Made by a program: the position numbers and the translations under genes
Virus record (IMG/VR): IMGVR_UViG_3300033145_000189
Span: 1 to 48,479 of that record
DNA from: a virus
Strand: one strand, 5' to 3'
Length of the DNA stretch: 48,479 bases
The notes under the pieces: generated by a model
What the model was told of the DNA's origin: nothing
What the model saw: the letters and a program-made list of their open reading frames with translations, nothing else
Database searches by the model: none
Part shown: positions 29,434 through 45,624 of the stretch, piece by piece
Layout of the letters: the number at the start of each line of letters is the position of its first letter
Numbering within the stretch: position 1 is the stretch's first letter

Positions 29434-30174
29434 ATGGTTACACGATTACGAATAATCATACCTACTATTCGGATTGATAGTCTGAAAAAATCTCTTGATT
29501 CTATTTTAAGGCAGATACCAATTGTAGATATATTTGTTCGTATAGTAATCGTTTATGATGGTTCATTATTAAATCCGCCTGAATATAAAGAAGAAAGTCC
29601 TTTCTATAAAGTAACATCACATCAAATTAATTATACTGGAAATCCTGCTCGTGCAGTAAATGATGAAATGCAATATAAACACGATTTCATTATGCACTGG
29701 TTTGATGATGATTTAATGTTACCGAATTCTATTTCTGCATTATTGAAAGGTGCAGAAAATGGAGCGGATGTAATTTGCGGTTGTGTAGAATCTAAAGAAT
29801 TTTCTTTTGAATTGAAAAATTTATATGGGCGTTATCCAGATAAAGGGTTACGAGTAATTTTAAGTAAGAATTTTATGCCACTTCAAGGATTGTTAATCCG
29901 TGGTGATTTCTTTCGTAAATTAAAAGGATTTAATGAGAAATTCAAATATACTTACGATTGGGATTTTTCAATTCGCTGCTGCATGTACGGACAACTCGCT
30001 TTCATATTTGATAAGGTCGCATTATGGCTCCCTTCTGATGATGGTATGATTGGTTCTTACATGGGATTAAATACAAAATTAACTGATGCTGAAAGAAAAG
30101 AATATAAAGATAATTGGAATTTACGCCGACAGGAACTTGGGAAAGAATGGGAGGAATCATGTCCGAATCATTAG
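29434..30174 (+). CDS. Family 2-like glycosyltransferase
   Basis: 246 residues from ATG 29434 with AAGGAG upstream. The N-terminus LRIIIPTIRIDSLKKSLDSILRQ is the usual GT-A opening, VIVYDGS follows near residue 46, and MHWFDDDLMLP near residue 86 carries the DxD-type metal and nucleotide-sugar site. KLKGFNEKFKYTYDWDFSIRC provides the acceptor-side acidic region. The enzyme would transfer a sugar from an activated donor; donor and acceptor are unknown. It is the first gene after the promoter at 29361. Confidence 0.8.
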   Translation: MVTRLRIIIPTIRIDSLKKSLDSILRQIPIVDIFVRIVIVYDGSLLNPPEYKEESPFYKVTSHQINYTGNPARAVNDEMQYKHDFIMHWFDDDLMLPNSISALLKGAENGADVICGCVESKEFSFELKNLYGRYPDKGLRVILSKNFMPLQGLLIRGDFFRKLKGFNEKFKYTYDWDFSIRCCMYGQLAFIFDKVALWLPSDDGMIGSYMGLNTKLTDAERKEYKDNWNLRRQELGKEWEESCPNH

Positions 30175-31463
30175 AAAGTTTACTACCTCAAATTGGTGGA
30201 AATGTACCTCGTCTTTGGCATTTAATATGGGAGCATAATTCGGATTTAAGAACCCATGCTGATATGGATTCTCCGAATAGTATTGCTTACTGTAATTGGA
30301 CACGTTCTTGCGGGATGCGTGAACTACATGGACGTGTTGTAGGCCTTGAATTGGACGAAGAAGCTGATACTCAATATCAACGACTTTGTACGTTGATGAA
30401 TCAGACTCCAGAAAAAATCAAAGTTATTGAAAATGCTAAACCATCTGGAAAGAAATCAATTGCTTTAGTTTATAACAGTAAAGATCAATGCGGGATTGCC
30501 CAACATACTGAATATTGGGTTAATCATCTTCATACCAGTTTTATCAAAATAAATTATCAACCAGATTCAAATTCATATCCTGACATTCTGCGTCAATGCC
30601 GTGTTCATGGTATTTCAATAGTTCATTTTCAACATGAATTTGCACTATTCCCGAATCAAGATGCTTTTACTGAATTGCTTATGGCATTGAAAAAAGATAG
30701 TCGTAAAATAATAATTGAATTCCATTCCGTTTCATCAATGTATCTGGATAGGCAAAGAGAGTATACTGAATTGGCTGATGTGGTAATATTACACCATGCG
30801 ACTGATGATTTATCTGGTTACGGAGCAGAAATCAAATTGATTGATCTGGCTCTACCAGAAAAAGAAGCTCGTCTTGCATCATTCAGGGCGAGGCATAAAT
30901 ATATCGTCGCTCTGTTTGGTTTCCCTGTTGATCATAAGCGTTTTCCAAGTTTGATTAAAGAAATTGCATCGGTTAAGAAAAAGAAACTCGGATTGCTTAT
31001 GATTACCCCTTACGACAAAGAAGTGCCGAATAAAGATGTTGCCGATATGGAGAAAGAAATAAACGAAACAGGATTAATGGAACATACTCTTTGGATAAAT
31101 GAATTTCTACCTATCGAGGAAGTAATCAGTACATTGAAATATGCTGATATTACTTATTTTAATTATGATCCTGAAGTGGGTCAAGGGAGTGCAAGTGGAG
31201 CGGCGGCAATCGCATTACTTGCAGGTAGAGTGATTGTAAATGAATCATCTATGTATGAAGACCTTCCAGTAGAATTCCGTGGTGATAAAACTTGGCGAGA
31301 TATTATTTTGAAAGGATATAAAGCCAAAGGCAAACGCCATCATTATAAAGCGTGGAAAAAGGTTGCAAAATTAATGGACACCAGAGCCAGTTCAAATGTT
31401 GCAAGCGGATACGATCAGATTTACATTCAATTGCTCACGAAAGAAGGTAAAGTAAATGGATAA
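30159..31463 (+). CDS. GT-B fold glycosyltransferase (GT4/GT1-like)
   Basis: 434 residues from ATG 30159, with GGGAGG about 5 bases upstream; it overlaps the previous gene by 16 bases. The first ~90 residues are an extra domain. From residue ~97 a Rossmann-type half follows (KSIALVYNSKDQCGIAQHTEYW), with IVHFQHEFALF in the middle. The second half has YIVALFGFPVDHKRFPSLI, WINEFLPIEEVISTLKYADITYF and the phosphate-binding region GSASGAAAIALLAGRVIV. This plan matches GT4-type enzymes. Donor and acceptor are unknown. Confidence 0.72.
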   Translation: MSESLESLLPQIGGNVPRLWHLIWEHNSDLRTHADMDSPNSIAYCNWTRSCGMRELHGRVVGLELDEEADTQYQRLCTLMNQTPEKIKVIENAKPSGKKSIALVYNSKDQCGIAQHTEYWVNHLHTSFIKINYQPDSNSYPDILRQCRVHGISIVHFQHEFALFPNQDAFTELLMALKKDSRKIIIEFHSVSSMYLDRQREYTELADVVILHHATDDLSGYGAEIKLIDLALPEKEARLASFRARHKYIVALFGFPVDHKRFPSLIKEIASVKKKKLGLLMITPYDKEVPNKDVADMEKEINETGLMEHTLWINEFLPIEEVISTLKYADITYFNYDPEVGQGSASGAAAIALLAGRVIVNESSMYEDLPVEFRGDKTWRDIILKGYKAKGKRHHYKAWKKVAKLMDTRASSNVASGYDQIYIQLLTKEGKVNG

Positions 31464-32334
31464 AGAGGAACGAATTGAAATTAAAAAGATACAAGAGATT
31501 TCTGAATCTCCTATAATTGAACATCAAGAAATATTTGGGATAGGTATTGGAACTATCAATGCCCCAGAACGACTCTTAAATTTACTTGAGTCGATAGTTG
31601 AATTTACTAAAAGACCTTACAGGGTTTATGTTCTCGATGATGGTTCAGATGAAGAATTGATAAATTACAATCGGACGATTTGTAAATTGATGAATGTACA
31701 TCTTGGAGAACATAGAGGGCAAAATGGAGAACCTTTGAATCATGGGATTTCAATAACGTGGAACAATTGTGTCAATGCTCTTGATGATTGTAAATACATT
31801 GCATTATTGAATGATGATGTTGTACTGACAGAAGATTGGGATGAAGCATTGATAGGTTCTTTGGAACGGAATGAAAATATAGGAATGGTTTCTTTACCGG
31901 AAAAACTTTTCTCACATGACACCAGAATCAAAACAAATGAATTTCCAATCCAAGTTCTTTCTTCTCAAGGATTCTGTTTTGCTTTCAGTCATAAAGATTG
32001 GTTAGGTGTCGGACACTTCAATGAAATGTATAAAAGTTTCTATGAAGAAGTACAGTTCGGTAATGACATGATAAGTAAACTTGGGAAATCAAATTACATA
32101 TTACCTTATCCAGTCATAAAACATAATCACGAAGAAGGTCATGCGTTTTCTGAAAATCCAAAATTACGACCATCACTCCGAATGAAACTATCAAAAAAGA
32201 TTTACGAATTAAAATATAATGAAGAACAATTAGATGAATTGTTTAATAATTATACTGCACAACCAATTGTTTTTTTCAACGGTAAAGAATGGAAAACAAT
32301 GGAAAAATCACCGGAAATTTTCAGGAGATTATAA
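31456..32334 (+). CDS. Family 2-like glycosyltransferase
   Basis: 292 residues from ATG 31456, overlapping the previous stop. Key parts are GIGIGTINAPERLLNLLESIVE (start of the GT-A fold), VYVLDDGSDEELI, a DxD-type site IALLNDDVVLTEDWDEAL near residue 115, and FNEMYKSFYEEVQFGNDMISKL as the acceptor-side acidic cluster. A C-terminal ~60 residues extend beyond the core. It probably adds one residue in a chain with the neighbouring transferases. The next gene is a relative. Confidence 0.8.
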   Translation: MDKEERIEIKKIQEISESPIIEHQEIFGIGIGTINAPERLLNLLESIVEFTKRPYRVYVLDDGSDEELINYNRTICKLMNVHLGEHRGQNGEPLNHGISITWNNCVNALDDCKYIALLNDDVVLTEDWDEALIGSLERNENIGMVSLPEKLFSHDTRIKTNEFPIQVLSSQGFCFAFSHKDWLGVGHFNEMYKSFYEEVQFGNDMISKLGKSNYILPYPVIKHNHEEGHAFSENPKLRPSLRMKLSKKIYELKYNEEQLDELFNNYTAQPIVFFNGKEWKTMEKSPEIFRRL

Positions 32335-33233
32335 TGAGAGTATTAGTAGGAAGTAACAGTTTCAACGGCGCACAAAGATGGGAGAAATTATTCTGGTCGA
32401 TCCGTAATGTAGATTGCGGTCATAGTAATTATGAATTGCTTGCGGTAGACGATGGCACACCGGGCGGCCAAGGCAGTAATATGATGGCTGTTGGTCAAAA
32501 GTATGGTGCGGCTTGCCTTCGATTTCAGAATAATAAAGGGATAGCGGCTGGATGGAATGCCATTGGTAATTATGCTTTTCATAATAATTTCGATGCATTT
32601 ATGATTGTCAATGATGATGTGATTGTTACTGATGATTGGCTTCGTACTTTCGTTTATTTCCTTGAACATAATCCGCACGTTAAAGGTTGCGTAAGTTACA
32701 ATCAATGGTTCTTCCGCGGTGAAGAATTTTATGGAAGTGAACTTAATACTCCTGCGAAAAGAATGCATCCCGGTACAAGAGAAAATCAAAACGACTTACC
32801 CATTTATTCTGACAGACCGGGCAGGGTAATGTGCGCACCCGGCATGGCGTTTGGAATGAGTATAGATACATTTATTATGATAGGTGGATTCGACGAAAAG
32901 AATTTCAATACATTCTTCGAGGAAAGTGATTTCGGAACTCGGCTGGCGATGGCTGGTCATGCTTCTTGGGTGCTTCCTTATCCTCAAGTTTATCACGCAT
33001 GGTCTGATACGTTCAAACATAATCCGAATCTGGATGCGGGTAAACGAGCGGATGAAAGTAGATTGAATTACATTCAGAAGTATCGTATTCCAGATGAAGG
33101 TCAATATCATCAACATCCATTTAGTTATACTGACCCGAAATATTATGGGCCGTTACCTTCTGTGGATGTTGAATATCTCTATAAAGATATTGACGGTGAC
33201 GGAATTTTGAAAGAAGGAAGATGTTTAGTTTAA
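32334..33233 (+). CDS. Family 2-like glycosyltransferase
   Basis: 299 residues from ATG 32334 (TAATG overlap). It contains LLAVDDGTPGGQGSNMMAVG, NNKGIAAGWNAIGNYA, the DxD-type site MIVNDDVIVTDDWL near residue 94, and GGFDEKNFNTFFEESDFGTRLAMAG as the acceptor-side acidic loop. This is a complete rhamnosyltransferase-like GT2 order. A C-terminal extension ends with a Ca-loop-like stretch (DIDGDGILKEG). Palindrome copy 4 begins right after the stop. Confidence 0.82.
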   Translation: MRVLVGSNSFNGAQRWEKLFWSIRNVDCGHSNYELLAVDDGTPGGQGSNMMAVGQKYGAACLRFQNNKGIAAGWNAIGNYAFHNNFDAFMIVNDDVIVTDDWLRTFVYFLEHNPHVKGCVSYNQWFFRGEEFYGSELNTPAKRMHPGTRENQNDLPIYSDRPGRVMCAPGMAFGMSIDTFIMIGGFDEKNFNTFFEESDFGTRLAMAGHASWVLPYPQVYHAWSDTFKHNPNLDAGKRADESRLNYIQKYRIPDEGQYHQHPFSYTDPKYYGPLPSVDVEYLYKDIDGDGILKEGRCLV

Positions 33234-33249
33234 CTGCAATCGATTGCAG
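33234..33249 (+). repeat. 16-bp palindrome, copy 4
   Basis: CTGCAATCGATTGCAG, with its left AA formed by the upstream stop codon TAA (33231-33233). The next gene's ATG is at 33271, and its ribosome site is an all-G run (GGGGGG) between palindrome and ATG. Confidence 0.92.
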
Positions 33250-33270
33250 TTTACTTTGGGGGGATTATAA

Positions 33271-33537
33271 ATGACATTGCCAACGATAAATGGAAATAAC
33301 TTTCCAGAAATATTAATGACTTCTGCATTGACTATGACCAATGGAAAGCCGAATCCAATTCAAGGATTCAATGTTCCAGATAAACCACCTCCAGAATCCG
33401 CTACTGAAAATGCAAAACAAGCGGCAAAAATAGCAGGAAATAATGCTCATAAAAGCGCATTACGGATTCAAGAGAATTTCAGACAGGTAGTCAGAAATGA
33501 AAGTGGCATTGGGAGAATATTTAATTTTATCACCTGA
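33271..33537 (+). CDS. Small protein of unknown function
   Basis: 88 residues from ATG 33271, with a G-only ribosome site (GGGGGGA) instead of the usual AAGGAG. The N-terminal part is Pro/Asn-rich (KPNPIQGFNVPDKPPPES); the rest is an Ala/Lys-rich helix. No motif or membrane segment is visible. It is the first gene after palindrome copy 4 and precedes a methyltransferase-like gene. No family is recognised. Confidence 0.55.
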   Translation: MTLPTINGNNFPEILMTSALTMTNGKPNPIQGFNVPDKPPPESATENAKQAAKIAGNNAHKSALRIQENFRQVVRNESGIGRIFNFIT

Positions 33538-33546: not shown

Positions 33547-34224
33547 ATGATTCCATTACACGATGTAACTCTTGAAATGATTCAAGCAATTAAAACAGGT
33601 CACGAATATCTTCTTGAATTCTATCCAGATTATGATTATCGGGTTAAATTAAATCCTTCTATTTTTGAAGGGCGTGAAGATATTACGAATGATACTGGAA
33701 TTAAACAACGGGCTTTTAATATCTGGTGGGCTATTCGTCAATGCTGGATGAAAAGTGATATTGGAATTGAATTTGGTTCCGGTGGCGTGAAAGCTCCATT
33801 TTGTATTTCTACTGATTATTCTGCTGGTTTGGAGTCTGATTACGGTGGTCGGTCTAATGGATGTCATTTTCGTGTTGATTTAGATCGTTTAGACGATGCT
33901 CACGGCATTGGTTTTTGGGAACCATGTATGTTTGCATTAATTTTGGCTAATCATGTTATGGAGCATTTAGAGCGTCCTTACGAAGCATTACAATTTATGG
34001 CAGAAATAACAAAGCAAGATGGAATTATTGCTCTTATAATTCCAGACCACGGAAAATGGGATACGATGATGCACGATAAGACGCATAAACATTGCTGGTC
34101 GGCAGATGAATTCAAAGAGCAATTCTTAAATGAAAACTCACTGAAAGAAATGGGATTAGAATTATTAGAATTCAATACCCTTGATAATAACTTTTCATTT
34201 GATGTAGTTTTAAGGAAGATATAA
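33547..34224 (+). CDS. SAM-dependent methyltransferase-like protein
   Basis: 225 residues from ATG 33547, with AAAGG upstream. IGIEFGSGGVKAP near residue 73 is a class I motif I (SAM-binding loop), and ILANHVMEHLERPYEALQFMAEI near residue 132 is the typical motif IV region of sugar or lipid O-methyltransferases. LIIPDHGKWD follows as the next strand. The protein is close to full length for this class. It most likely methylates a glycan or small-molecule intermediate made by its neighbours; the acceptor is not known. Confidence 0.75.
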   Translation: MIPLHDVTLEMIQAIKTGHEYLLEFYPDYDYRVKLNPSIFEGREDITNDTGIKQRAFNIWWAIRQCWMKSDIGIEFGSGGVKAPFCISTDYSAGLESDYGGRSNGCHFRVDLDRLDDAHGIGFWEPCMFALILANHVMEHLERPYEALQFMAEITKQDGIIALIIPDHGKWDTMMHDKTHKHCWSADEFKEQFLNENSLKEMGLELLEFNTLDNNFSFDVVLRKI

Positions 34225-35208
34225 ATGGGAAAGATACTTTACATCACAGCACCGGAAGCAGATTTTCAATCGTCGTTAATTTATAAAGGATTGTGTAATG
34301 TTCTCGGAGTTGAGAACGTAGTTGATTTCCCATTGAAGAAATCATATCACGGGGAAACAGAACGATATAGTTTGAAACCAATTTACGGGACAGATGAAGA
34401 AGGAGTTACAGCACCTTTTGAATGGTTCATAGCAGAACCATATCATAACTGGACTGTTGATGAAATTGGAAATAATGCAGAAGTTTTTGATTTCGTAATT
34501 CTGGAATCAGTTAGAAAATTAACTGGTGAAGTTTATGAAATGCTTTGTGCTAATTATCCTAAAATAAATTCTCTACCGATGGCTATAATTGATGGCGAAG
34601 ATTACGGTGGTGTTGTTACCGAGTTCAAAGAAAAGAATAATTGCATTGCATATTTCAAACGTGAATTAACTGTACTCGAAAAAAATGTTTATCCATTCCC
34701 GTTTTCTACTCCTGTTCCACAATATTATGGTAGGGACTGGACTGAAAAAAAAGACAATGAAGAATTAAATGGAATGAATGTTCTTTGCTCGTTCAATAAA
34801 ACACATCCACAAAGAGATGTATTCAAAAATGCAATGGATGGTTCATCACATACTTTAATAAGAAAAGGATTGTGTTATGCGGATTACCTCTCTGCATTGA
34901 GTAAGGCACGTATAGCATTATCGGTACGAGGTTGGGGGTGGGATACTTTAAGACGGTGGGAAATAGCATCGTTTAAGACTTTGTTATTTACAGATCAACT
35001 TGGAATTATTGACCCGAATCCATATCGTGATAGAGTTCATTGCGTTTATGTTACTCCTGACGATGTTGTAGAAAAAGGGAGATATTATTTAGACCATCCT
35101 GAAGAAGCGATGACGATTGCCAAAGCAGGACAAGCGCATACCCTTGAATATCATACTCCCGAAAAACGAGTAAAGGATATGTTAAAAATACTGGTCGAGA
35201 AATCTTAA
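34225..35208 (+). CDS. CgeB-like / family 1-type glycosyltransferase
   Basis: 327 residues from ATG 34225, with AAGG upstream and no gap to the previous stop. The first half has KILYITAPEADFQSSLIYKGL. The second half has MNVLCSFNKTHPQR, then LSALSKARIALSVRGWGWDTLRRWEIASFKTLLFTD and finally AGQAHTLEYHTPEKRVKDML. This last pattern is characteristic of the C-terminal nucleotide-sugar-binding half of CgeB-like (Glyco_trans_1_2) enzymes. It is a GT-B type transferase of unknown donor. Confidence 0.7.
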   Translation: MGKILYITAPEADFQSSLIYKGLCNVLGVENVVDFPLKKSYHGETERYSLKPIYGTDEEGVTAPFEWFIAEPYHNWTVDEIGNNAEVFDFVILESVRKLTGEVYEMLCANYPKINSLPMAIIDGEDYGGVVTEFKEKNNCIAYFKRELTVLEKNVYPFPFSTPVPQYYGRDWTEKKDNEELNGMNVLCSFNKTHPQRDVFKNAMDGSSHTLIRKGLCYADYLSALSKARIALSVRGWGWDTLRRWEIASFKTLLFTDQLGIIDPNPYRDRVHCVYVTPDDVVEKGRYYLDHPEEAMTIAKAGQAHTLEYHTPEKRVKDMLKILVEKS

Positions 35209-35918: not shown

Positions 35919-36647
35919 ATGAAAATTATGATTATTGGGCATCTTGGAAGACTCGGCTTTCCTTTATTCAAATCATTTTGTGACGCAGGACATGAAGTAT
36001 TCGGAGTAGATAATCGTACAGACCATGATAGTAATGTAGATATACGTGATAGGGAAGCAATAGTAGAACATATCGATTTAATTAAACCTGAAATCGTACT
36101 TCATCTTGCCGCAATACCAGACCCGGTAGGGCGTAAATCAATTGAACAGATGGAACGTATATGGGCAATCAATGTTGAAGGTACTCGTAATGTCATTTAT
36201 GGATGCCTCAAAGCAAAAGTACGTCACTTTGTTTATTATTCTTCTGGTGCAGTTTATGGGTGGGATGATATTCAAAATTGCGGTGAAGAAAAAGGATTCC
36301 TGATAGACCCTTATCCTGTAACTAAACGCACCTGTGAAGATTTAACTCGATGGGCTTCCGGTCCGAAATCAGACCCCGATTGGAATATGAAATGTTCTGT
36401 ACTTCGTTCCGCTCCATATGGTGATTCGGCATTACGTAATTTTTATTATGCTTGTTCGCATCCAGAAGATGTTCTTGAAATTACTGAATTGGCAATCAAT
36501 AATCAAGAAGAACAATATGCTCAATACTTCGTTTGTGCAAAAGAACAAGTAGATGCTTCTGGAAAAACTATCAAACCTATGATGCCGCGTGGACGTGTTA
36601 ATTCTGCATTTGACAGAGTTCCTTGCTATAAAGAATGGATAAATTAA
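35919..36647 (+). CDS. NAD-dependent epimerase/dehydratase (extended SDR)
   Basis: 242 residues from ATG 35919 with AAAGGAGAA upstream. GHLGRLG at residues 7-13 is a GxxGxxG NAD-binding motif, though His8 replaces the usual small residue. LHLAAIPDP at ~61-69, VYYSSGAVYG at ~105-114 and Tyr132-PVT-Lys136 (YxxxK) complete the SDR active site. At 242 residues it is shorter than typical (~310), with a reduced substrate-binding C-terminal part. It would act on a nucleotide-sugar. The next gene, a radical SAM protein, starts at the base after its stop. Confidence 0.82.
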   Translation: MKIMIIGHLGRLGFPLFKSFCDAGHEVFGVDNRTDHDSNVDIRDREAIVEHIDLIKPEIVLHLAAIPDPVGRKSIEQMERIWAINVEGTRNVIYGCLKAKVRHFVYYSSGAVYGWDDIQNCGEEKGFLIDPYPVTKRTCEDLTRWASGPKSDPDWNMKCSVLRSAPYGDSALRNFYYACSHPEDVLEITELAINNQEEQYAQYFVCAKEQVDASGKTIKPMMPRGRVNSAFDRVPCYKEWIN

Positions 36648-37394
36648 GTGACAGTTACATTACCTCCAAGGCATTATTCTGATGAGCATATTTTATCATG
36701 TCTTGAGTTTGAAATAACTCACAGGTGTAATAAGATGTGTACTAAATGTGACCATTTTATTCATTCATCAAAATTTGATTACACGACACTTGATGAATGG
36801 GAATATTTAATGTCATGTATTGATCATCGGGAAAAAATACATAACATATTAATTTCAGGTGGAGAATGTACGCTTCATCCTAACTTTGAAGATATAATAA
36901 GAAGTGTACGCGGCCATTTCCCTGATAGTGGATTAAGGATTTTCACTAACGGTTCAATGCTTGATACTATTAATATCGAGATTCTTGATATGATTGGGGA
37001 GATAATAATAACCGATTATGGTGAATGGAATAAAGATGTTATTGAAAAATATCGTAATCGTGGAAATGTAGCATTAACTGATAGGTCGAGAGGCGATGAA
37101 TCATTTTCAAATCCATTTAGAAAAAATACTTGCTCAGAAGATGCGGCAAAATGGGTTCGGAATAAATGTTTACATCAGGTACGAATAGTCGGCACTAAAT
37201 TATATGGATGTTGTATTTCAGAAGGTGTCGCTCGTTATCATACACAAGAAGATATAGGGATTCTATTTACTAAAAATTGGAGGGAAGATTTTTTTAATCT
37301 ACCTACCTGGAAAGCGTGCCAACATTGTTATCGTGGTTGTGAAGATGTGCATTATCAAAATTGGCTTATTCAAACCGGACAGGAGGATATGTAA
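36648..37394 (+). CDS. Radical SAM protein
   Basis: 248 residues from GTG 36648, directly abutting the epimerase stop. Cys27-xxx-Cys31-xx-Cys34 (CNKMCTKC) is the radical SAM Fe4S4 motif, and ILISGGECTLHP at ~68-77 is the GGE motif that holds SAM. Further Cys residues near the end (CLHQVR, GCCISE, CQHCYRGC) could ligate an auxiliary cluster, SPASM-like. Its place between an epimerase and a methyltransferase suggests radical chemistry on a sugar or other small substrate; that is inference. Confidence 0.82.
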   Translation: MTVTLPPRHYSDEHILSCLEFEITHRCNKMCTKCDHFIHSSKFDYTTLDEWEYLMSCIDHREKIHNILISGGECTLHPNFEDIIRSVRGHFPDSGLRIFTNGSMLDTINIEILDMIGEIIITDYGEWNKDVIEKYRNRGNVALTDRSRGDESFSNPFRKNTCSEDAAKWVRNKCLHQVRIVGTKLYGCCISEGVARYHTQEDIGILFTKNWREDFFNLPTWKACQHCYRGCEDVHYQNWLIQTGQEDM

Positions 37395-38104
37395 TGCCGT
37401 TTACAGATCAAGATATTTTAAGTTTCTTTCGTCGTATTCCTAAAGGAAAAGTAACGCAACGGGATATAGATTACTCAGAAGATGTTTGGACATTACAGCC
37501 ATTACTTTTTTATATGCCGTATTCGATAAGAGCTAAAACACTAATTGAAATTGGCGTTGCTGATGGTTCTACAACTATGCCATTGCTAAAAGCGGCGGCA
37601 GAAAATGGTGGAATTTTACATTCGATAGACCCGTCAGGTTGTGAAGATGCTAAACGTCTTGTTAAGAGTTCTGGATTAGAACAACACTGGCGATTCCATA
37701 ATATGACCAGTGATGAATTTTTTGAAAACTATCGGGAATTAGTAGGTTCAGATAAACTTGAAATTGACTTCGGATTTATTGATGGCGATCATACATGGCA
37801 ATGGGTAGCAAAAGATGTTCGTAATTCATGTTTACGCCTTGCTAAAAATGGAATACTTTTTGTTTCTGATTTTCAATGTTCATTCAATTGGGTTCCAGAA
37901 GCATTGAATCCTGAGATTTACACTACTAATAAAAATACAGAACAAGATGGTTCAAATGGAATTTACAAAGGGCTTCGATTAGTTATGGAGGATTTTCCAC
38001 ATCTATCTACAATACTTCTTGCCGCAAGATGTAACCCTTCAATTTTAATTTCTCGTCCGTATAATTACAAAGGAAAGCCGGAGGAATATTGCAATGAGGA
38101 ATAA
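37394..38104 (+). CDS. Class I SAM methyltransferase (Methyltransf_24-like)
   Basis: 236 residues from ATG 37394 (TAATG overlap, GGAGG upstream). The SAM-binding motif I is LIEIGVADGST at ~50-60; LHSIDPSG at ~75-82 is the acidic motif II; and FGFIDGDHTWQWVAKDV at ~127-143 is the DGDH motif of the Methyltransf_24 family (O-methyltransferases such as cephalosporin hydroxylase-linked enzymes). It overlaps the next gene by 11 bases. The probable substrate is a sugar in the glycan pathway. Confidence 0.8.
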   Translation: MPFTDQDILSFFRRIPKGKVTQRDIDYSEDVWTLQPLLFYMPYSIRAKTLIEIGVADGSTTMPLLKAAAENGGILHSIDPSGCEDAKRLVKSSGLEQHWRFHNMTSDEFFENYRELVGSDKLEIDFGFIDGDHTWQWVAKDVRNSCLRLAKNGILFVSDFQCSFNWVPEALNPEIYTTNKNTEQDGSNGIYKGLRLVMEDFPHLSTILLAARCNPSILISRPYNYKGKPEEYCNEE

Positions 38105-39143
38105 AATATCAGTAGTGATTTCATCTTACAACAGGGCGCATCATTTAATTGATACGCTACCAACTTTAATCTGCCAACCTATTCCTAAAGAGGATTATGA
38201 AATTGTAATAGTTGATGATCGTAGTACGGATAACACTCGTGAAGTTTGTATGTCATTCGCAGACCAATGTAATATTAGATACATTCGACTTGATGAAGAT
38301 ATGCGCGGTCCAATCATTGATCCTGAATTAGCACATCATGTTGAAATAAAAGGTGAATTTGATGGGACGGATTTTGAATATCGTAATTGTTCATATCCGA
38401 AAAATGTAGGTTGGAAGTCTGCTAAACATGATATTATTATGTTTACCGATCCAGAAGTTTTTCATCTTACTGACACGATGATAGATCATTTACATTTACA
38501 GAATGCAACATTATATAATAATCTACAACCTAAATATCGAATGGGCAATATAGCTGGTTATGTCTACGGTAAAAATGACGGTCCGGGCCGACCGATAGAA
38601 AAGGCATTCTATGATGAATTCCTGAAACTCTCTCCTGTAAATGGTATGCGTTCTAAATTTGATACATTGGCATTGTGTAAAAAACACGACCTTCGTTTAA
38701 TCCATGAAGCATATCCATTCTGTATAACTCTTGAGCGTGGAACACTTGAAGATGTCAATGGATGGGATGCTCGATTTATTCATTGGGGAATGGAAGATAA
38801 TGATGCCATGCAACGGCTTGCATGGGCGCATAATTGCGGGGTAAGTTTTGCTGAAATTGATCACGACCTTTCGAAAGAAAGTAAGATGTGGAAACCACGA
38901 TACGTCCACTTATGGCATGATCAAATGAGAATCAATAATCATACATACAATAGACTCCTTTGCGAACGTTGGCTTCATCTGTATGCGCGTATCTGGAATA
39001 ATTGTAAACCACTTTTACCTGATTGTAAAAGATTCTTAAAAGCAAACCATCGCAGGGTACTTACTGTTGAGGAAGAACGTCAACTCACAGAAAATGAAGC
39101 ACGATTTAAGGAGACCGGAGAATGGGAAGAACATACACAATAG
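38094..39143 (+). CDS. Family 2-like glycosyltransferase
   Basis: 349 residues from ATG 38094, with GGAGG upstream. SVVISSYNRAHHLIDTLPTL at ~6-25 and EIVIVDDRSTDNTREV at ~36-51 are the classic GT2 start. IIMFTDPEVFHLTD around residue 117 is the acid site (TDPE rather than DxD). LEDVNGWDARFIHWGMEDNDAMQRLAW near ~215-240 is the ED-containing acceptor region. This is the longest GT2 here. It overlaps the following methyltransferase by 22 bases, so the two are coupled. Confidence 0.83.
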   Translation: MRNKISVVISSYNRAHHLIDTLPTLICQPIPKEDYEIVIVDDRSTDNTREVCMSFADQCNIRYIRLDEDMRGPIIDPELAHHVEIKGEFDGTDFEYRNCSYPKNVGWKSAKHDIIMFTDPEVFHLTDTMIDHLHLQNATLYNNLQPKYRMGNIAGYVYGKNDGPGRPIEKAFYDEFLKLSPVNGMRSKFDTLALCKKHDLRLIHEAYPFCITLERGTLEDVNGWDARFIHWGMEDNDAMQRLAWAHNCGVSFAEIDHDLSKESKMWKPRYVHLWHDQMRINNHTYNRLLCERWLHLYARIWNNCKPLLPDCKRFLKANHRRVLTVEEERQLTENEARFKETGEWEEHTQ

Positions 39144-39883
39144 ATAATTTTGATGTAGAGTTTGAAATATTCTTTGGCAAACCGCAAGAACACTATCATT
39201 CCTTACATCGTTCACAAGAAGGAGCAGGACAGCATCGTGATTTATTTAAGGAAGTTGATTCTTTAACTAATGAGCAGATACGTAATAAATATCTTGATGA
39301 ACGTTGGTATTGCCCGGCGGCAAGCAATCTAAATGCTGAATTCTTTAATGGCCTTGCAGAAACAAAAGCGTACCATGAATCAACTCAATGGTGTTTTGAT
39401 TTATATTCAGAATCATGTCGTGCTCTTGATTACGGTTGTGGCCATTCTTTTGTTGGTTTAATGTTAGCACTTCATGGTTACCAAACTACTCTGGCAGATA
39501 TTCCTTCAAAGTATTTTAAGTTTCTTGAATATATCTGTCCCAAAGTTGGAATCTCTACCGTAGATTTTATTCCAATAAAAACAGAGCGTGACCTGATTGA
39601 TATGTATGACTTCATGGTTTGCGCTGATGTTCTTGAGCACGTTTGGGAACCAGTTGAAGTATTACGTCATTTAATAGAACATCTGAAACCGGGTGGACAT
39701 ATTTGGCTCATGCCATTCTTTGACCACATGGAATCTCCAGAGTTTCCGAATGGTGTAGACCCATCACACCTAAAGAGAAACACTTGGCGTTATCAAGAAG
39801 TTGCAAAATGGGTAAAGATAGTTGATGACTTGGGACTTGAATCACTTGACCCTGGACTAAATCATAAATACAGAAAGAGGTAA
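39122..39883 (+). CDS. SAM-dependent methyltransferase-like protein
   Basis: 253 residues from ATG 39122, with AGGAGA upstream. The core has ALDYGCGHSFVGL at 101-113 (motif I), TLADIPSKYFKFL at ~123-135 (motif II) and FMVCADVLEHVWEPVEVLRHLIEHLKPGG at ~164-192 (motif IV/V), all typical for class I methyltransferases. The first ~90 residues are an additional N-terminal region. It ends in a basic tail. The acceptor is unknown; context suggests a sugar. Confidence 0.8.
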   Translation: MGRTYTIDNFDVEFEIFFGKPQEHYHSLHRSQEGAGQHRDLFKEVDSLTNEQIRNKYLDERWYCPAASNLNAEFFNGLAETKAYHESTQWCFDLYSESCRALDYGCGHSFVGLMLALHGYQTTLADIPSKYFKFLEYICPKVGISTVDFIPIKTERDLIDMYDFMVCADVLEHVWEPVEVLRHLIEHLKPGGHIWLMPFFDHMESPEFPNGVDPSHLKRNTWRYQEVAKWVKIVDDLGLESLDPGLNHKYRKR

Positions 39884-39887: not shown

Positions 39888-40964
39888 ATGAAAATCGGAT
39901 TTGTTTTTGTTACTTGCCGACCTGAAACAATACTCGACGTGATAACTGCATACGTCGATAATGCGATTCAGTTCAAACAGAAATTTGATATTATTCTTAT
40001 GGAAGATTCTTTAGAAGAACCGCGTGAAAAATTAATCAGAGAAATAAAATATCTTGCTGTAAATAATATGGATACAAAAGCATTTTATTATACTCATGCT
40101 TCTGCAAAAGAAGATTTAGGTGAGGATGCTTATATCTTCCCTCATAAGGCCGGAGCTTGTCGTGGATATGGCCTCTTAAAAGCGTATGAAATGGGTTACG
40201 ATGTAATACTTACCATTGATGATGATGTATGGCCTATTGATGGAGAGAACTTCGTAGGCAAGCATTTAAGAGCGCTTAACGGTAAGGGTGATGGTTGTTG
40301 GTGGAATCCATTTAAGAATATCATCGGACTTGAAAAATATTACTCAAGAGGATTTCCTTATAATGTGCGGGAAAATTCAGAAGTAGTTTTGAATCAGGGA
40401 ATACAACTTCATGGTGCTGATGTTGATTCAATAACACTTCAAGAATGTAATGCGGAATCAGGTATCTTTCCTCATGTTGGAAATTGTACTTATATTCCTC
40501 ATGGTGTGATAATTCCGAATGGAAGTTACACTACGATTGCATATACATCGGTAGCAATAAAAAGGAAAGCCATGCCAGTTTATTATTCTCAACTTATGAA
40601 TACAGAAGTTGATGGAAAAATGATTGGTAGATTCGATGATATATGGAGCGGAGTATTTCTACAAAGAATCGCAAGGCATTTTGATTGTTGTGTTAGTCAT
40701 GCGCCGCCGATGTCTGACCATCGAAAGATACCACGTCCATTACAAAAAGATATTGATGCAGAAGCACCTGGCATTAAACTGAATGAAGATATGTGGAAGA
40801 TTGCAGATGAATGTCAATTTATATCTCGTTCATGGATAGATTGCTATGAAGAATTGGCGCACTTCGTAGCATCTAAAGCGGTATCTTTTGATTATCCTGA
40901 TTACATACGAAAGAACTGCGAAGCTATGTTGGTCTGGTGTAAATTAATAAGAGAAAGGGAATAA
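39888..40964 (+). CDS. GT75-like protein (reversibly glycosylated polypeptide / UDP-arabinose mutase family)
   Basis: 358 residues from ATG 39888, with AGAGG upstream. Asp111-113 (LTIDDDVWP) forms the DxD motif. SRGFPYNVRENSEVVLNQG at ~153-171 matches the RGYPFSLR region of plant RGP/UAM proteins, where the Arg before Gly (here Arg154) is the reversibly glycosylated residue. GSYTTIAYTSVAIKRK and MIGRFDDIWSGVFLQRI at ~246-261 match later conserved blocks. It may interconvert UDP-pyranose and furanose sugars or act as a transferase. It is rare outside plants; the assignment is by motif only. Confidence 0.7.
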   Translation: MKIGFVFVTCRPETILDVITAYVDNAIQFKQKFDIILMEDSLEEPREKLIREIKYLAVNNMDTKAFYYTHASAKEDLGEDAYIFPHKAGACRGYGLLKAYEMGYDVILTIDDDVWPIDGENFVGKHLRALNGKGDGCWWNPFKNIIGLEKYYSRGFPYNVRENSEVVLNQGIQLHGADVDSITLQECNAESGIFPHVGNCTYIPHGVIIPNGSYTTIAYTSVAIKRKAMPVYYSQLMNTEVDGKMIGRFDDIWSGVFLQRIARHFDCCVSHAPPMSDHRKIPRPLQKDIDAEAPGIKLNEDMWKIADECQFISRSWIDCYEELAHFVASKAVSFDYPDYIRKNCEAMLVWCKLIRERE

Positions 40965-41159: not shown

Positions 41160-42164
41160 ATGAGAATTCTAATAACTGGCGCTGGTGGTTTCATGGGTTC
41201 GCATATTACTGATGCGTTAAAATCTCAAGGTCATATTGTTTACGGTGTTGATGATTTTTCAGGTGGTTATCCAAGAAACGTTTCTGATGAATGGGATTTC
41301 TTTTCCAAGTTTGATATTCGTTCGTTAGAACTATGTAAGATCATTGCTAATGATTTCAGGCCGGAAGTCATTTATCATCTTGCCGCCAATGCAAGAGAGG
41401 GTGCTTCTTTCTTTCAGCCGTATGAAGTTGGTTCAAGAAATTATGGTGCGTATATTCCTATATTGGAATCATGTATCGCTACTGGTTATCTGAAACGAGT
41501 AATTCTTTTTTCAAGTATGGCAGTTTACGGTGATGCGAATCAACCACCTTTTGATGAACGAATGTTACCAACACCGATTGATCCTTACGGCGTAAGTAAA
41601 TTAGCAATGGAAGAAACTACGAAGATGCTTTCTGAATGTCATGGATTTGATTATGTAATTATCAGACCGCATAATGTTTTTGGAAGTCGTCAGAATTTAA
41701 GTGATAAATATAGAAATGTTATTGCGATATTTCTAAATAATATCATGCGTGGAGAACCGATAACGATTTACGGTGACGGAGAACAGGAAAGAGCATTTTC
41801 ACATATTAGCGATTCGTTACCTTGCTATGTAAATGCTTTATATGATGCAACTGGTGAAATAGTTAATATCGGTGGTAAAGAATCTATTACCGTGAATCAA
41901 TTAGCAGATGAAATTATTTCAGCATACCTTGGAAAAGATGCAGAATGGCCTGTTGAACATATCCCTACAAGGCATGGTGAAGCAAAATATGCATATTGCA
42001 CCACAGAGAAATCAGAACGCCTTTTAGGGTACAAAGAAACGGTTGGATGGAAAGATGGTATTAAGCAGATGGTTCAGTATGCGCGGAGTTGTGGAAAGCA
42101 AGAATGGAAATTAGATCATCTTCCGTTATTAAATGATAAAGCACCTGAAACTTGGAAAGTATAA
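41160..42164 (+). CDS. NAD-dependent sugar epimerase/dehydratase (GalE-like SDR)
   Basis: 334 residues from ATG 41160, the usual size for the family. GAGGFMG at 7-13 binds NAD, VYGVDDFSGG at ~27-36 binds the cofactor ribose, YHLAANARE at ~72-80 and LFSSMAVYG at ~116-124 supply the catalytic Ser, and Tyr143-GVS-Lys147 is the YxxxK pair. HNVFGSRQNLSDKYRNV and FSHISDSLPCYV fit the nucleotide-sugar-binding C-terminal part. It probably interconverts a UDP- or dTDP-sugar used by the transferases nearby. Confidence 0.88.
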   Translation: MRILITGAGGFMGSHITDALKSQGHIVYGVDDFSGGYPRNVSDEWDFFSKFDIRSLELCKIIANDFRPEVIYHLAANAREGASFFQPYEVGSRNYGAYIPILESCIATGYLKRVILFSSMAVYGDANQPPFDERMLPTPIDPYGVSKLAMEETTKMLSECHGFDYVIIRPHNVFGSRQNLSDKYRNVIAIFLNNIMRGEPITIYGDGEQERAFSHISDSLPCYVNALYDATGEIVNIGGKESITVNQLADEIISAYLGKDAEWPVEHIPTRHGEAKYAYCTTEKSERLLGYKETVGWKDGIKQMVQYARSCGKQEWKLDHLPLLNDKAPETWKV

Positions 42165-42199
42165 ATCAGTCTGGTTCATATTAATTGGAGGGTAAAGTA

Positions 42200-42805
42200 A
42201 TGAAAAGAATTGGGATTGTAATGGCGATTATTTTTTTAGTATCAATCGCTTCTGGATGTTCTTGGATTGAAAAAAAAATGACCGGGTATGCTACAGAAAT
42301 TGCTGTTGAAAAGGTTCGTGGTCAACTCGATAAAGCGAATGAAAAGATTGACAAGATGATTGATAAACTTCCGACCGAGATTATCGATAAGGCAACCGGG
42401 AAAATAAGCGATAAAATTAATATTGTTATCGCGCGTAATAATGTTGAATTAAAAGCTCAAGGATTAGAAACTCGCGAAATACTTATCAAGAAATATGATA
42501 CAAATAAAGATGGCATCCTTCAAACAAAAGAAATCCTGAAAACTGGTACTGGTGAAATGAAACAAGTTATGGATTATCGTCTTGGTGAAATATCAAAACG
42601 TATTCAAGCAGGAGGGAATCCAAAAGAAGTTCTTGCTGATGAAGGATGGGGTACTACAAAAGATTTTGCTGCAATACTTGCACTCCTTGTATCTCTTACC
42701 GCCACCGAAGTTGTCAGACGTAAACGTGATAGTGAAAAACGAACAGTAATACATAATCGAATTGATAAAGTGGAAACTGCGAATGCGAAAGGCGGTACAG
42801 TATGA
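42200..42805 (+). CDS. Lipoprotein with EF-hand-like loop and C-terminal membrane helix
   Basis: 201 residues from ATG 42200, with GGAGGG upstream. The signal peptide ends in a good lipobox, ASGC, with Cys20. A helical coiled-coil region follows (~25-75). Then DTNKDGILQTKE around residues 100-111 matches the 12-residue EF-hand calcium loop with acids at positions 1, 5 and 12. Near the C-terminus FAAILALLVSLTATEVV could span a membrane, with a basic tail. A protein anchored at both ends could bridge two membranes, but that is inference. It overlaps the next lipoprotein gene. Confidence 0.65.
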   Translation: MKRIGIVMAIIFLVSIASGCSWIEKKMTGYATEIAVEKVRGQLDKANEKIDKMIDKLPTEIIDKATGKISDKINIVIARNNVELKAQGLETREILIKKYDTNKDGILQTKEILKTGTGEMKQVMDYRLGEISKRIQAGGNPKEVLADEGWGTTKDFAAILALLVSLTATEVVRRKRDSEKRTVIHNRIDKVETANAKGGTV

Positions 42806-43104
42806 AAATCTTCTTTGTAATACTAATCATGTTGATGTTGATTTCTGGTTGCTGTGGTTCTGAAAAGAAATTTACAGAAGCCGAAAAAATAACAGCATTG
42901 AATAATTACCGGGCGGCATGGGAATTCAAGACATATAATCCTACAAGTAATTATGCAGAATTTCTTTCACTCGCGGCAGAAGTACATCTAAAAGAAATTG
43001 GAAATCCGAATCCGATTCCATTACCTGTTAACTGGAATAACGCTATCGAACGTGAAGCGGCATTGGATATTGCAAGACAAGCACATCAGGACGCAGGAAA
43101 TTAA
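42802..43104 (+). CDS. Small lipoprotein
   Basis: 100 residues from ATG 42802 (ATGA overlap with the preceding gene). Signal peptide: MKIFFVILIMLMLISGC, with lipobox LISGC and Cys17. The mature part of ~84 residues is helical and soluble (FTEAEKITALNNYRAAWEF ... EREAALDIARQAHQDAGN). The pairing with the larger lipoprotein directly upstream suggests a joint envelope function; an outer-membrane spanin-like role is possible, but no typical Pro-rich segment is seen. Confidence 0.65.
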   Translation: MKIFFVILIMLMLISGCCGSEKKFTEAEKITALNNYRAAWEFKTYNPTSNYAEFLSLAAEVHLKEIGNPNPIPLPVNWNNAIEREAALDIARQAHQDAGN

Positions 43105-43116
43105 AGGAGTTTAATC

Positions 43117-43881
43117 ATTAAGACTGACGCACATTACTTCCTCACCTATCATATTTTTAGGGTGGCCGGATATAAGCCCAACGAAGCAAAGATTATTGCG
43201 GCTTCTTGTGAATTCGTGAATCATTGCACACCATCAGACTGTCCAGAGTTTCGGCTCGGCAAACAACAAAAGATTCCGACTTATACACAAGACCGTTATA
43301 ATAATAATTGCACTACAAGTAAAATTGAAGTGCAGTTACCTTTTCATTACGTACCGGGTTTAGAAAATTCAACTAAATTAAACGTAGTGAAAAATGGGCT
43401 TATTGTAAAAACTCTTCTAAGGCAAGTTCTCGCTATGCCTTTTAATCCGTATTTAATCGGTATAGCATTTCATGCCTTTCAAGATTCATTTACACATAAG
43501 GGGTATTCCGCTTATGTATCCGGCCACTATCCTAAAGAGCGTGACAACGATTTACTTATATTTTCTGAATGTTCTGAAAAAGCTCTAATCAATTTAGGGT
43601 TTGTGAATCTGGAATTGAGACAGAAGATAAAAGAAGTACAGGATAATGGTTTCTTCGATTCCAATGATTCTGAATGTAGGATTGATGCTATCAATCGTCG
43701 GTGGGCAATTAAGGATAAAGGTATTTACCCACCGCAATCAAAATGGTATTCAAACGCACGTAAGAAGAAAAGTTTGAAAAAATATATTCATTCCGATTTC
43801 GCAAAATTTCAGAATGCCGCGCGAGAATATAAATCAATGGTTTGGGAAATGCTTATCTCGCATAATGTAGTGAGGGCATAA
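43117..43881 (+). CDS. DUF6765-like protein with apparent ATT start
   Basis: 254 residues if started at ATT 43117, seven bases after AGGAG (43105-43109). The nearest ordinary start, GTG 43162, lacks a ribosome site and would remove the conserved-looking KTDAHYFLTYHIFRVAGYKP. Residues with His/Asp (TDAHYFLTYH, PFHYVPG, GIAFHAFQDSFTHKGYSAY) resemble the metal-dependent, phospholipase C-like arrangement of DUF6765. Molecular function is unknown. Either a rare start codon is used or the ATG was lost by mutation. Confidence 0.6.
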   Translation: MKTDAHYFLTYHIFRVAGYKPNEAKIIAASCEFVNHCTPSDCPEFRLGKQQKIPTYTQDRYNNNCTTSKIEVQLPFHYVPGLENSTKLNVVKNGLIVKTLLRQVLAMPFNPYLIGIAFHAFQDSFTHKGYSAYVSGHYPKERDNDLLIFSECSEKALINLGFVNLELRQKIKEVQDNGFFDSNDSECRIDAINRRWAIKDKGIYPPQSKWYSNARKKKSLKKYIHSDFAKFQNAAREYKSMVWEMLISHNVVRA

Positions 43882-44876
43882 TGAAAATATTAATTGAAGA
43901 TTATGCATTAAATCATATTGGTGGTGGACAGAAATTTAGTTGTCTTATGGCCGAACATCTATCACAGAAGCATGAAGTATTTTTGACTTCTGGTTCGCGG
44001 ATGGATAAAGGTTATCTTCAAAATTTCTACGGTGTAGATTTATCAAAAGTGAAATTAATTCTTGAAGGTGAATTGACAGGTAATTACGATTTACATATTC
44101 AAGCTGAACATGCTTCATGGTTACCACCGCGCGGAAAGATTTCAATTCTTCTATGTCATATTCCTGCACCGAATAAACCGCTTACTTATATTGATGATTA
44201 TGATTTTATTTTCTGTGCCTCTGAATACGCCAGAAACATCATTAAAAAGCATTGGAATAAAGAATCATATATAACCAGTCTTTATTCATCAGACATCCTT
44301 CCTGCACCCAAAGAACGACAGATACTGACTGTTAATCGTATTACTCATCATAAGTATCTAATGGAGATGATTGAGCAGTTCAGATTAAGGAATTTTGCAT
44401 TGCGTGGATGGAAATTAAAAATCATTGGCGCAACAGGTTGGAATCCGCAATATGATTTACTTCTGAAAAATCAAAGTGATATACCGGGAATATCTTTCTT
44501 ATTTAATATTCCATGGGAATTAGTCGAGCAGGAATATGCTCGTTCTTCAATATACTGGCATTTAGGTGGACTATCAAAAAATGAATTTGAGGGTGAATCA
44601 TGGAGTATGACAACCGCAGAAGCAATGAGTGCAGGATGTTATCCTTTAGTTCCTGCGATCGGTGGGAGTTCAGAAGTCCCGCCGATTGGTTCTTACGCAG
44701 AAGAATATAGGGTTGATGATGCTGAACATCTTGGAATCATTACCGAAAGTATGATTAAGGATAGGATTGATTTCAATACTTATTCTAAATCATGTATTGA
44801 ACACGCGCGAAATTTCAAAAAGAAATTCTGGAATAATCTACAATCATTTTTGAAGCCATTAAATATTGAATTATAA
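43881..44876 (+). CDS. GT-B fold glycosyltransferase (GT4-like)
   Basis: 331 residues from ATG 43881 (TAATG overlap). It starts KILIEDYALNHIGGGQKFSCLMAEHLSQKHEVFL, the standard GT4 N-terminus with a Gly-rich acceptor loop. YDFIFCASEYARNIIKKHW lies in the middle. The C-terminal half has ILTVNRITHHKYLMEMIEQF, FNIPWELVEQEYARSSIYWHLGG and SWSMTTAEAMSAGCYPLVPAIGGSSE, the E-x7-E region that binds nucleotide-sugar. Donor unknown. Palindrome copy 5 overlaps the end of the stop codon's flanking AA. Confidence 0.85.
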   Translation: MKILIEDYALNHIGGGQKFSCLMAEHLSQKHEVFLTSGSRMDKGYLQNFYGVDLSKVKLILEGELTGNYDLHIQAEHASWLPPRGKISILLCHIPAPNKPLTYIDDYDFIFCASEYARNIIKKHWNKESYITSLYSSDILPAPKERQILTVNRITHHKYLMEMIEQFRLRNFALRGWKLKIIGATGWNPQYDLLLKNQSDIPGISFLFNIPWELVEQEYARSSIYWHLGGLSKNEFEGESWSMTTAEAMSAGCYPLVPAIGGSSEVPPIGSYAEEYRVDDAEHLGIITESMIKDRIDFNTYSKSCIEHARNFKKKFWNNLQSFLKPLNIEL

Positions 44877-44892
44877 CTGCAATCGATTGCAG
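44877..44892 (+). repeat. 16-bp palindrome, copy 5
   Basis: CTGCAATCGATTGCAG; its left AA is the end of the upstream TAA (44874-44876). It is followed by GGGG and ATTTTATG, so the ribosome site of the gene at 44902 is a G-only run touching the palindrome. Confidence 0.92.
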
Positions 44893-44901
44893 GGGGATTT
44901 T

Positions 44902-45624
44902 ATGTTTAAGGTAGCAATCATAATAACACATTACGGTGAACAAACTTCATTTCTTGAACGATGTAGGAATATTCGTTTACAGTTACTTGGTTTGTATGAT
45001 TACACTTATTTTATTGAAAGTGATAATACTTACGCAAAGAAGAATCTTTCATTACTTTGGAATGAATTAAGTAAATCTTGCAATACAGAGTGGGTATGTT
45101 TTCTTAATCCCGATGTTTTACTTACTCCTAATTGGTTGAAGTCAATGTTCGACGCAATTCAATCAGATGACAATAAAGATAATATCGCAGTCATTGGGCC
45201 ATCTGCTAATGAAGGTTCTACAAAAATGGATGTTCCGTTCACAGTAGGGATGCCACCTTCATTCGGAGAATTACTTGATCTTGAAACTCATGCCAGAACT
45301 ATTCATGGTGCTGGAGATAGAATTATTCGTGAAAACGCTAAAGTATATGGCCATTGTTACATGGTTCGCAAAAGTATTTTTGATGAACTTGGCGGATTCG
45401 ATACTGACTTCCCTTTATACGGACAGGATACAGATTATAATAACCGAGTGATTGAAAATGGTTATCGTGTTGTTCAAGCAAGGCAATCATACGTTTGGCA
45501 TTGGGGGGGATACACCGGACGAAATGAAATAAAACGAATCAGTATTGATAAGAAAAATGCAGTTGAACTTTGCAAACAAAAACAACTTGAAAGGAAAAGT
45601 AACAATGAAAAAAGAAATAATTAA
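44902..45624 (+). CDS. Family 2-like glycosyltransferase
   Basis: 240 residues from ATG 44902, with GGGGGA just upstream (the in-frame ATG 44866 lies in the previous gene). KVAIIITHYGEQTSFLERCRNI opens the GT-A fold; VCFLNPDVLLTPNWLKSM near residue 74 is the NPDV acid site; GGFDTDFPLYGQDTDYNNRVIENGYRVVQA near ~160-190 is the acceptor-side acidic loop. This matches rhamnosyltransferase-like GT2 enzymes. It overlaps the ParB-like gene by 20 bases. Confidence 0.83.
   Translation: MFKVAIIITHYGEQTSFLERCRNIRLQLLGLYDYTYFIESDNTYAKKNLSLLWNELSKSCNTEWVCFLNPDVLLTPNWLKSMFDAIQSDDNKDNIAVIGPSANEGSTKMDVPFTVGMPPSFGELLDLETHARTIHGAGDRIIRENAKVYGHCYMVRKSIFDELGGFDTDFPLYGQDTDYNNRVIENGYRVVQARQSYVWHWGGYTGRNEIKRISIDKKNAVELCKQKQLERKSNNEKRNN

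Follow-up and report, generated by a model that had tools for sequence, protein, structure and literature searches.

A glycan gene module behind the tail genes of a siphovirus-like phage, with the virion as its favoured target

The window considered here is the whole 48,479-nt viral record IMGVR_UViG_3300033145_000189. Its segment from 29434 to 45624 holds 15 glycan-type genes, recognised by Pfam profiles, motifs and the list of open reading frames (ORFs), and these genes occupy 27% of the whole 48 kb. The module ORFs all lie head-to-tail on the + strand; neighbours are spaced by −23 to +57 nt, mostly by no more than ±10. A sequence-only reading had given these positions correctly. Immediately upstream, on the same strand, a string of tail genes (21039..29323) encodes a tail tube (Phage_tube_2, 9.9e-35), a tape measure and a Dit, both identified by PHROG matches, and a tail protein. 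Further upstream are putative fibre-like proteins (16401..19914, +), of which the one at 17416-19914 has a beta-helix domain (PF13229, 2.1e-7). Both sets are candidate glycan acceptors.

A gap of 110 nt, the only sizeable one before the module, separates it from the last tail gene. It contains a promoter-like site, TTGACA-16-TATTCT (29361..29388, +; 10/12), which is suggestive only, as such sites are no commoner in the region than in shuffled DNA; no terminator-like site was found between the tail genes and the module. Codon usage in the module closely follows that of the structural genes (r=0.978), and the possibility that the record is a chimera or contains host contamination was dismissed, since codon usage and composition speak against it.

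The first gene of the module encodes a probable GT2 (GT-A) glycosyltransferase (29434..30174); it has no Pfam match, is related by hhalign to the GT2s of the window (P=2e-4), and has BLAST matches to ORFs near GT75 in two other viral contigs (L051 and L062). Next is a GT4-like (GT-B) candidate (30159..31463), unconfirmed, whose motifs were read by eye only and whose start has SD support. Family profiles, PDB, hhalign and structure gave no support for its GT-B identity; an AlphaFold2 single-sequence model of 30159-31460 had a pLDDT of 37, and a fold search with it gave no meaningful match. Two GT2 glycosyltransferases follow, at 31456..32334 (PF00535, 8.3e-10) and 32334..33233 (listed as 32289; PF00535, 2.1e-8), and then a weak methyltransferase (33547..34224; PF13489, 8.9e-6, one bit under the cut-off) and a CgeB-like GT-B glycosyltransferase (34225..35208; PF13524, 9.5e-16).

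The central part of the module begins with a short SDR epimerase/dehydratase (35919..36647; PF01370, 2.1e-20), a radical SAM enzyme with the CxxxCxxC motif (36648..37394; PF04055, 4.4e-9) and a Methyltransf_24 methyltransferase (37394..38104; PF13578, 7.5e-17). These are followed by a further GT2 (38094..39143; PF00535, 8.9e-14, and PF02709, 2.3e-6), a SAM methyltransferase (39122..39883; PF13489, 1.2e-10), the GT75 gene discussed below, and a full-length SDR resembling UDP-glucose 4-epimerase (41160..42164; PF01370, 6e-47), for which the best PDB match is 4zrm (8e-44). A GT4 (GT-B) glycosyltransferase (43881..44876; PF00534, 1.6e-10) and a last GT2 (44902..45624, listed as 44866; PF00535, 1.3e-5) complete the set, with a ParB-like gene at 45605 behind them. 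Interspersed are non-sugar ORFs at 33271, 35222, 35500 and 40967, a DUF6765 gene at 43162, and lipoprotein ORFs at 42200 and 42802.

Pfam thus confirms four GT2s, two GT-Bs and the GT75; two further glycosyltransferase candidates are weaker, and the tally is completed by three methyltransferases, two SDRs and a radical SAM gene. Nine glycosyltransferase-like genes had been proposed; seven have a Pfam match, and those at 29434 and 30159 stand on weaker ground. The proposed methyltransferase, SDR and radical SAM genes were all recovered by Pfam, the methyltransferase at 33547 just below threshold, and the family content supports the proposal of a phage-borne module for making and methylating a glycan. 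Outside the module, an ORF at 13898..14533 (+), 38 nt downstream of the gene for the major capsid protein, carries STDGT and DADE motifs, read by eye, and is a GT-A-like candidate. Every profile test of this identity was negative, and an AlphaFold2 single-sequence model of 13904-14530 was unusable (pLDDT 34). Its equation, as a tenth glycosyltransferase, with the GT2 found behind the capsid gene in another lineage was unsupported by HMM and hhalign, and the candidate is a lead only.

The gene at 39888..40964 belongs to the GT75/RGP family (PF03214, 2.3e-16) and matches MtdL structures at 1.6e-20. MtdL and Hyg20 are GT75 NDP-pyranose mutases, and the known members of the family are enzymes of plant cell-wall or antibiotic pathways (PMC9937993); in the literature searched, the mutase family was nowhere tied to phages. 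By sequence, the phage protein falls in the same fold family. Its DDD motif, D111-D113, and metal-binding H278 align with D109-D111 and H287 of MtdL. The nucleophile Arg159, base Asp260 and substrate-binding Arg257 of MtdL map to R154, D251 and R248, and the counterpart of Asp195, read from the alignment, is D178. Equivalents of R154, D178, R248 and D251 are invariant in 11 phage GT75 copies. Given this conservation of MtdL's proposed catalytic residues, the protein is better read as a predicted NDP-pyranose mutase supplying a furanose donor than as a glycosyltransferase; the family assignment of the sequence-only reading holds, but the role that it gave to the gene is the weaker choice. Unlike MtdL, the phage protein has Y219/T220 in place of the sugar-site residues S228/Q229, where most other phage copies have CGMN, and K280/R283 in place of the phosphate contacts R289/H292. 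These changes are variation at the substrate site and do not place the protein outside the GT75 family.

The density of glycan genes exceeds the ordinary: the record has four Pfam GT2s in its 48 kb, and the 16 records of 17-595 kb used for comparison have 0-5. In tblastn searches of 50,697 phage records, the first ten module proteins had no relatives; for the remaining queries, the matches listed were to the ParB-like gene behind the module and to GT75, GT75 in a single 595-kb jumbo phage. Single-protein scans of viral contigs with TerL, GT75, 32289 and 34225 found no relatives, nor did a scan of genome contigs with the portal protein. The claim that the module is unusually large is therefore upheld in relation to cultured phages, in which the tested proteins, GT75 and the ParB-like one apart, lack BLAST relatives, but not in relation to metagenomic phages, since some environmental contigs equal or surpass this record in glycosyltransferase density.

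GT75 is carried by 61 IMG/VR contigs. In 15 distinct contigs its neighbourhood could be seen to include portal, scaffold, capsid or tail genes, always on the same strand. In L005, a tape measure and tail genes precede about 13 glycan-type genes, including GT75, radical SAM and Methyltransf_24. The order in L029 is minor head protein, a six-gene cassette with GT75, scaffold and major capsid protein (MCP); in L030, L037 and L042 the cassette follows the portal; and in L053, L054, L059, L060, L064 and L070 the order is portal, scaffold, MCP and cassette, with adaptor or fibre genes after it where the contig extends. Individual enzymes recur as well. By BLAST, the CgeB-like protein has a relative in the L049 cassette and the short SDR in the GT75 loci L053, L054, L060, L064 and L070; relatives of the radical SAM enzyme occur in L005 and L020-L024, and the Methyltransf_24 family is present in 21/50 GT75 virus records. 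The phage GT75s split into several separate clades. With the capsid protein as the only query, a GT2 cassette gene was found at most 2 kb behind the MCP in 20/20 new, non-reference contigs that extend 2 kb or more beyond that gene, and upstream in none; this is linkage through shared descent, found from cassette-bearing phages, and not 20 independent events. The phage studied here is outside this capsid-cassette lineage and has its own cassette at the tail end. In the window and its relatives alike, glycosyltransferase genes lie within the morphogenesis gene string.

The genes might be cargo with no set target in the phage: morons gained singly, whose substrates would be small molecules or unrelated compounds of the host, with the radical SAM enzyme and the SDRs not in one pathway. 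No complete pathway can be written from the module, non-sugar ORFs interrupt it, and relatives of the radical SAM gene in L020 and L024 adjoin oxygenase-like genes. However, the same families co-occur with GT75 in unrelated phages, and the module is tightly packed and uniform in codon usage; we regard the cargo explanation as quite improbable.

The target had been left open among virion, host surface and DNA. Modification of LPS, capsule or another surface glycan, with receptor change or phage exclusion as the outcome, is suggested by the combination of glycosyltransferases and epimerases, which resembles the P-SSM2-type cyanophage polysaccharide (“LPS”) clusters, interpreted as acting on the host surface (PMC7824862), and by the occurrence of cellular GT75 homologues in many bacteria and archaea. 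Against this, Pfam matches and a TM check reveal in the module no multi-TM protein, flippase/GtrA, polymerase, membrane-anchored GtrB-type glycosyltransferase or lipid-linked initiating glycosyl-1-phosphate transferase, and its enzymes look soluble. Since there is no multi-TM protein, the module has nothing to export a lipid-linked glycan. Its Pfam matches include no sugar kinase or nucleotidyltransferase, in contrast to the P-SSM2 cluster, and it trails the tail genes in one string, so that a receptor change would come late. A host-surface role thus appears unlikely.

Sugars might instead be assembled on modified bases in the DNA of the phage, blocking host restriction. Hydroxymethylated bases are glycosylated by phage glycosyltransferases according to work cited in PMC12619734, and in one record with a distant GT75 (L017/G015) three TET-associated glycosyltransferases lie beside the GT75-like gene. 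But TAGT (PF20691) is absent from the window, although the same search matched 3/50 records; no T4-type glycosyltransferase is among the module's Pfam or PHROG matches; the ParB-like gene is the only one for DNA metabolism within the module or close to it; and GT75 cassettes elsewhere lie among head and tail genes. The TET/JBP profile PF12851 was silent on every record and on its control alike. Replication genes are absent from the record, which may be incomplete, so a partner in DNA modification could be encoded beyond its ends. We consider this explanation very improbable.

Since flippase, polymerase, initiating transferase and TAGT are all lacking, and since cassettes recur in head and tail strings, a virion target is favoured; gene content and placement thus strengthen this option and weaken the other two. 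The reading that we prefer, and hold to be probable by a modest degree, is of a modular cassette whose product, methylated and probably containing a furanose, is a glycan attached to virion proteins; in this phage the likeliest acceptor would be a tail or fibre protein. Both SDRs, along with the radical SAM enzyme, would remodel host NDP-sugars, and the GT75 mutase would ring-contract one sugar to a furanose donor. Six to eight soluble glycosyltransferases would then assemble an oligosaccharide on the acceptor, and the methyltransferases would cap it. Assembly would be cytoplasmic, and the module would be transcribed late, together with the virion genes to which it belongs. The enzymes could also act on another late-made substrate.

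The related sets inside the particle-building genes of many viruses suggest that phages may coat themselves with custom sugars. More tentatively, and with a confidence that stops short of even, we propose that in many uncultured phages constant sites of the head/tail string hold a virion glycan locus of variable make-up, often just downstream of the major capsid gene and in some cases with its own GT75 making furanose, so that their particles would bear methylated sugar coats specific to the lineage, a counterpart to the capsule types of bacteria. The window would exemplify this in a siphovirus-like phage, its locus lying at the tail-tip end. Were this so, complex virion glycosylation would be common in environmental phages, built by a shared, reshuffled toolkit in the capsid/tail string with furanose sugars made through GT75 mutases. 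A glycosyltransferase cassette behind capsid or tail genes would be a simple genomic signature of such phages, and the role of phage sugar coats in adhesion, shielding or host recognition would become testable.

Phage-encoded glycosylation is already known in kind, and the module is a variant of it. Like the P-SSM2-type clusters, it is a large phage-borne set with several glycosyltransferase families and SDR epimerase/dehydratases. Those clusters belong to large cyanophages and can include sugar kinases and nucleotidyltransferases, whereas the present one, in a 48-kb siphovirus-like record, lies behind tail genes, has methyltransferases and GT75, and does not make nucleotide sugars from scratch. 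It shares phage glycosyltransferases with the TET/TAGT DNA-hypermodification clusters, which in L017 once lie beside a distant GT75-like gene, but the window has no TAGT and its cassette sits with virion genes. A parallel in presumed target is offered by mycobacteriophages: they encode glycosyltransferases whose substrates are believed to be the subunits of capsid and tail tube (Freeman et al. 2023, as cited in PMC12619734); here, virion proteins are the presumed target. For mycobacteriophages such as Maravista, only two putative glycosyltransferases are reported (PMC11256854), compared with about 15 enzymes here, including methyltransferases, SDRs, a radical SAM enzyme and a predicted furanose mutase.

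The IMG/VR record, 48,479 bases in all, carries a structural string of tailed-phage type, with TerL (gene start at 6509), a portal–MuF fusion (8671), an HK97-type major capsid protein (MCP, 12487), the tail tube (21039), the tape measure (22993), Dit (27212) and a tail protein (27971), and a dense run of sugar genes comes next on the same strand. The 15 glycan-type genes of this module (29434–45624) amount to 13.3 kb, or 27% of the record, and their intergenic gaps, after a single gap of 110 nt, lie mostly within ±10 nt. The module and the structural genes agree in codon usage (r = 0.978) as closely as the halves of either set do (0.973 and 0.974), and GC and skew continue without a break. Therefore, recent foreign DNA or a chimera is ruled out as the origin of the sugar run. 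Since neither an integrase nor any gene for replication could be recognised in the window, the record may be incomplete. Its left end (1–3000) has a GC of ~0.45–0.47 and small ORFs, unlike most other parts. Two fibre-like genes, one with a β-helix, lie between the head-completion and tail-tube genes (16401–19914), where GC (~0.45 vs. 0.36) and GC3 exceed the remainder of the window; this is possibly a swapped-in fibre cassette. Behind the sugar module, a ParB-like gene adjoins a PA0069/Rv2578c-like radical SAM gene (45605–47660).

Pfam identifies four GT2 genes in the module (31456, 32334, 38094 and 44902), a CgeB-like GT-B (34225), a GT4 (43881), a GT75/RGP (39888), a short SDR (35919), a UDP-glucose 4-epimerase-like SDR (41160; also PDB 4zrm), a radical SAM gene (36648) and methyltransferases at 37394, 39122 and, weakly, 33547. 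The gene at 29434 is probably a GT2, and that at 30159 looks GT4-like by eye, computed support being absent. Non-sugar genes are interspersed at 33271, 35222 and 35500, together with a 63-aa membrane protein (40967), two small lipoproteins (42200 and 42802) and a DUF6765 protein (43162). The lipoproteins and the DUF6765 protein (42200–43881) may serve in lysis or in the envelope.

Enzymes of family GT75 are mutases that need a metal and turn NDP-pyranoses into NDP-furanoses (PMC9937993), and the solved structures nearest to the window GT75 are those of MtdL (1.6e-20). Residue mapping places the MtdL DDD motif at D111–113, the nucleophile Arg159 at R154, the base Asp260 at D251, Arg257 at R248 and the metal ligand His287 at H278, with Asp195 read off the alignment to the MtdL structures as D178. 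The two proteins differ at the sugar-site residues S228/Q229 and at the phosphate contacts R289/H292. Judged from its sequence, the window GT75 likely performs the furanose-forming step, on a sugar that these residues do not name.

Searches of the scanned collections with TerL and with the portal found no close relative of the window's phage. An alignment of 11 GT75 sequences, used as search handle, matched 61 IMG/VR contigs and 55 cellular loci. Phage and cellular labels are clustered in a tree of 100 sequences (9 changes vs. ~33 when shuffled) and do not form one group each, at least three changes being forced by well-supported branches; the window copy sits on a long branch and is poorly placed. 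Direct neighbours of phage GT75s point in the same direction in 82 of 97 cases, and many of them belong to GT2, Methyltransf_24, SDR or further sugar families. Methyltransf_24 is present in 21 of 50 GT75 records, the window's included; in 13 of the 20 besides the window it is co-directional with GT75 and no more than 5 kb away, against ~7 expected on any strand. By BLAST, the window's short SDR, methyltransferases, GT2s, CgeB-like GT and radical SAM match genes in other GT75 loci. As far as sequence similarity can tell, the module and these loci draw on one toolkit, reshuffled.

Where do such cassettes sit in other phages? The 39-kb contig L005 has the same order as the window, tape measure and tail genes being followed by ~13 genes of glycan type, several of them assigned by eye; GT75, three Methyltransf_24 and two radical SAMs are among these. 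In L029, a cassette of six genes, GT75 among them, separates the minor head protein from scaffold/MCP; cassettes stand behind the portal in L030, L037 and L042, and behind MCP in L053, L054/L055, L059, L060, L064 and L070, the last group (L053–L070) continuing into adaptor, stabiliser or fibre genes where the contig extends that far. PHROGs support the portal and MCP labels; those of adaptor, stabiliser and fibre, like that of the protease in L049, are our own reading. Wherever BLAST found hallmark genes, in 16 loci (15 distinct), they share the strand of GT75; in the remaining 42 viral loci that have a GT75 ORF, BLAST against the same small reference set recognised none. By eye, a 213-kb phage contig (L016, G014; 399–15549) carries three radical SAM-like genes, two apparently B12-binding, with GT9-like genes, GT75, two SDRs and a UDP-GlcNAc 2-epimerase-like gene adjoining virion-type genes. 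Phage contigs L020 and L024 have a related radical SAM gene, amid several 2OG-oxygenase-like genes (by eye), followed by carbamoyltransferase-like and tail-fibre-type genes.

A search with MCP alone, not selected on sugar genes, gave 35 loci, of a lineage different from that of the window's phage. In 20 of 20 non-reference contigs with at least 2 kb beyond MCP, a GT2 gene starts <2 kb behind it. The genes that come next vary and are of GT, methyltransferase, SDR, sulfotransferase-like or GT75 type; upstream of MCP, these 20 have no cassette gene. Pfam finds GT2 in 20 of the 25 records taken from the MCP search, in several as the very gene behind MCP. Because these contigs are related by descent and the query was an MCP of phages that carry cassettes, the result shows strong linkage and does not count as 20 independent events. 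Every long-enough contig of L126–L160 and L053–L070, with the order portal–scaffold–MCP, has a GT2 gene of ~590–850 aa close behind MCP and then a sugar cassette whose content varies greatly, a candidate locus for variation of capsid glycans.

The simplest reading of the module is cytoplasmic glycosylation of virion proteins; by gene position, the likeliest acceptors in the window's phage would be tail, tail-tip or fibre proteins. Membrane spans are predicted in none of the module's confirmed enzymes, and neither a flippase nor a polymerase was found in it. Modification of the host surface is less likely, since the module has no export machinery. Modification of DNA is likewise less likely, because the window has no TET-associated glycosyltransferase (TAGT, PF20691) and no DNA-modification gene adjoins the module, a basis that does not extend to TET/JBP. 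Elsewhere, L017 (G015; 5449–9464) has a ParB-like gene and then a group of three TAGTs that also includes a very distant GT75-like protein, and resembles a cluster for DNA hypermodification.

The papers searched, mostly outside subscription journals, did not contain the combination seen here, in which the morphogenesis strings of many uncultured phages hold large cassettes of GT, methyltransferase and SDR genes together with a GT75 mutase. The components are known: GT clusters occur in cyanophage P-SSM2 (PMC7824862), and virion glycosylation has been described in mycobacteriophages, as cited in PMC12619734.
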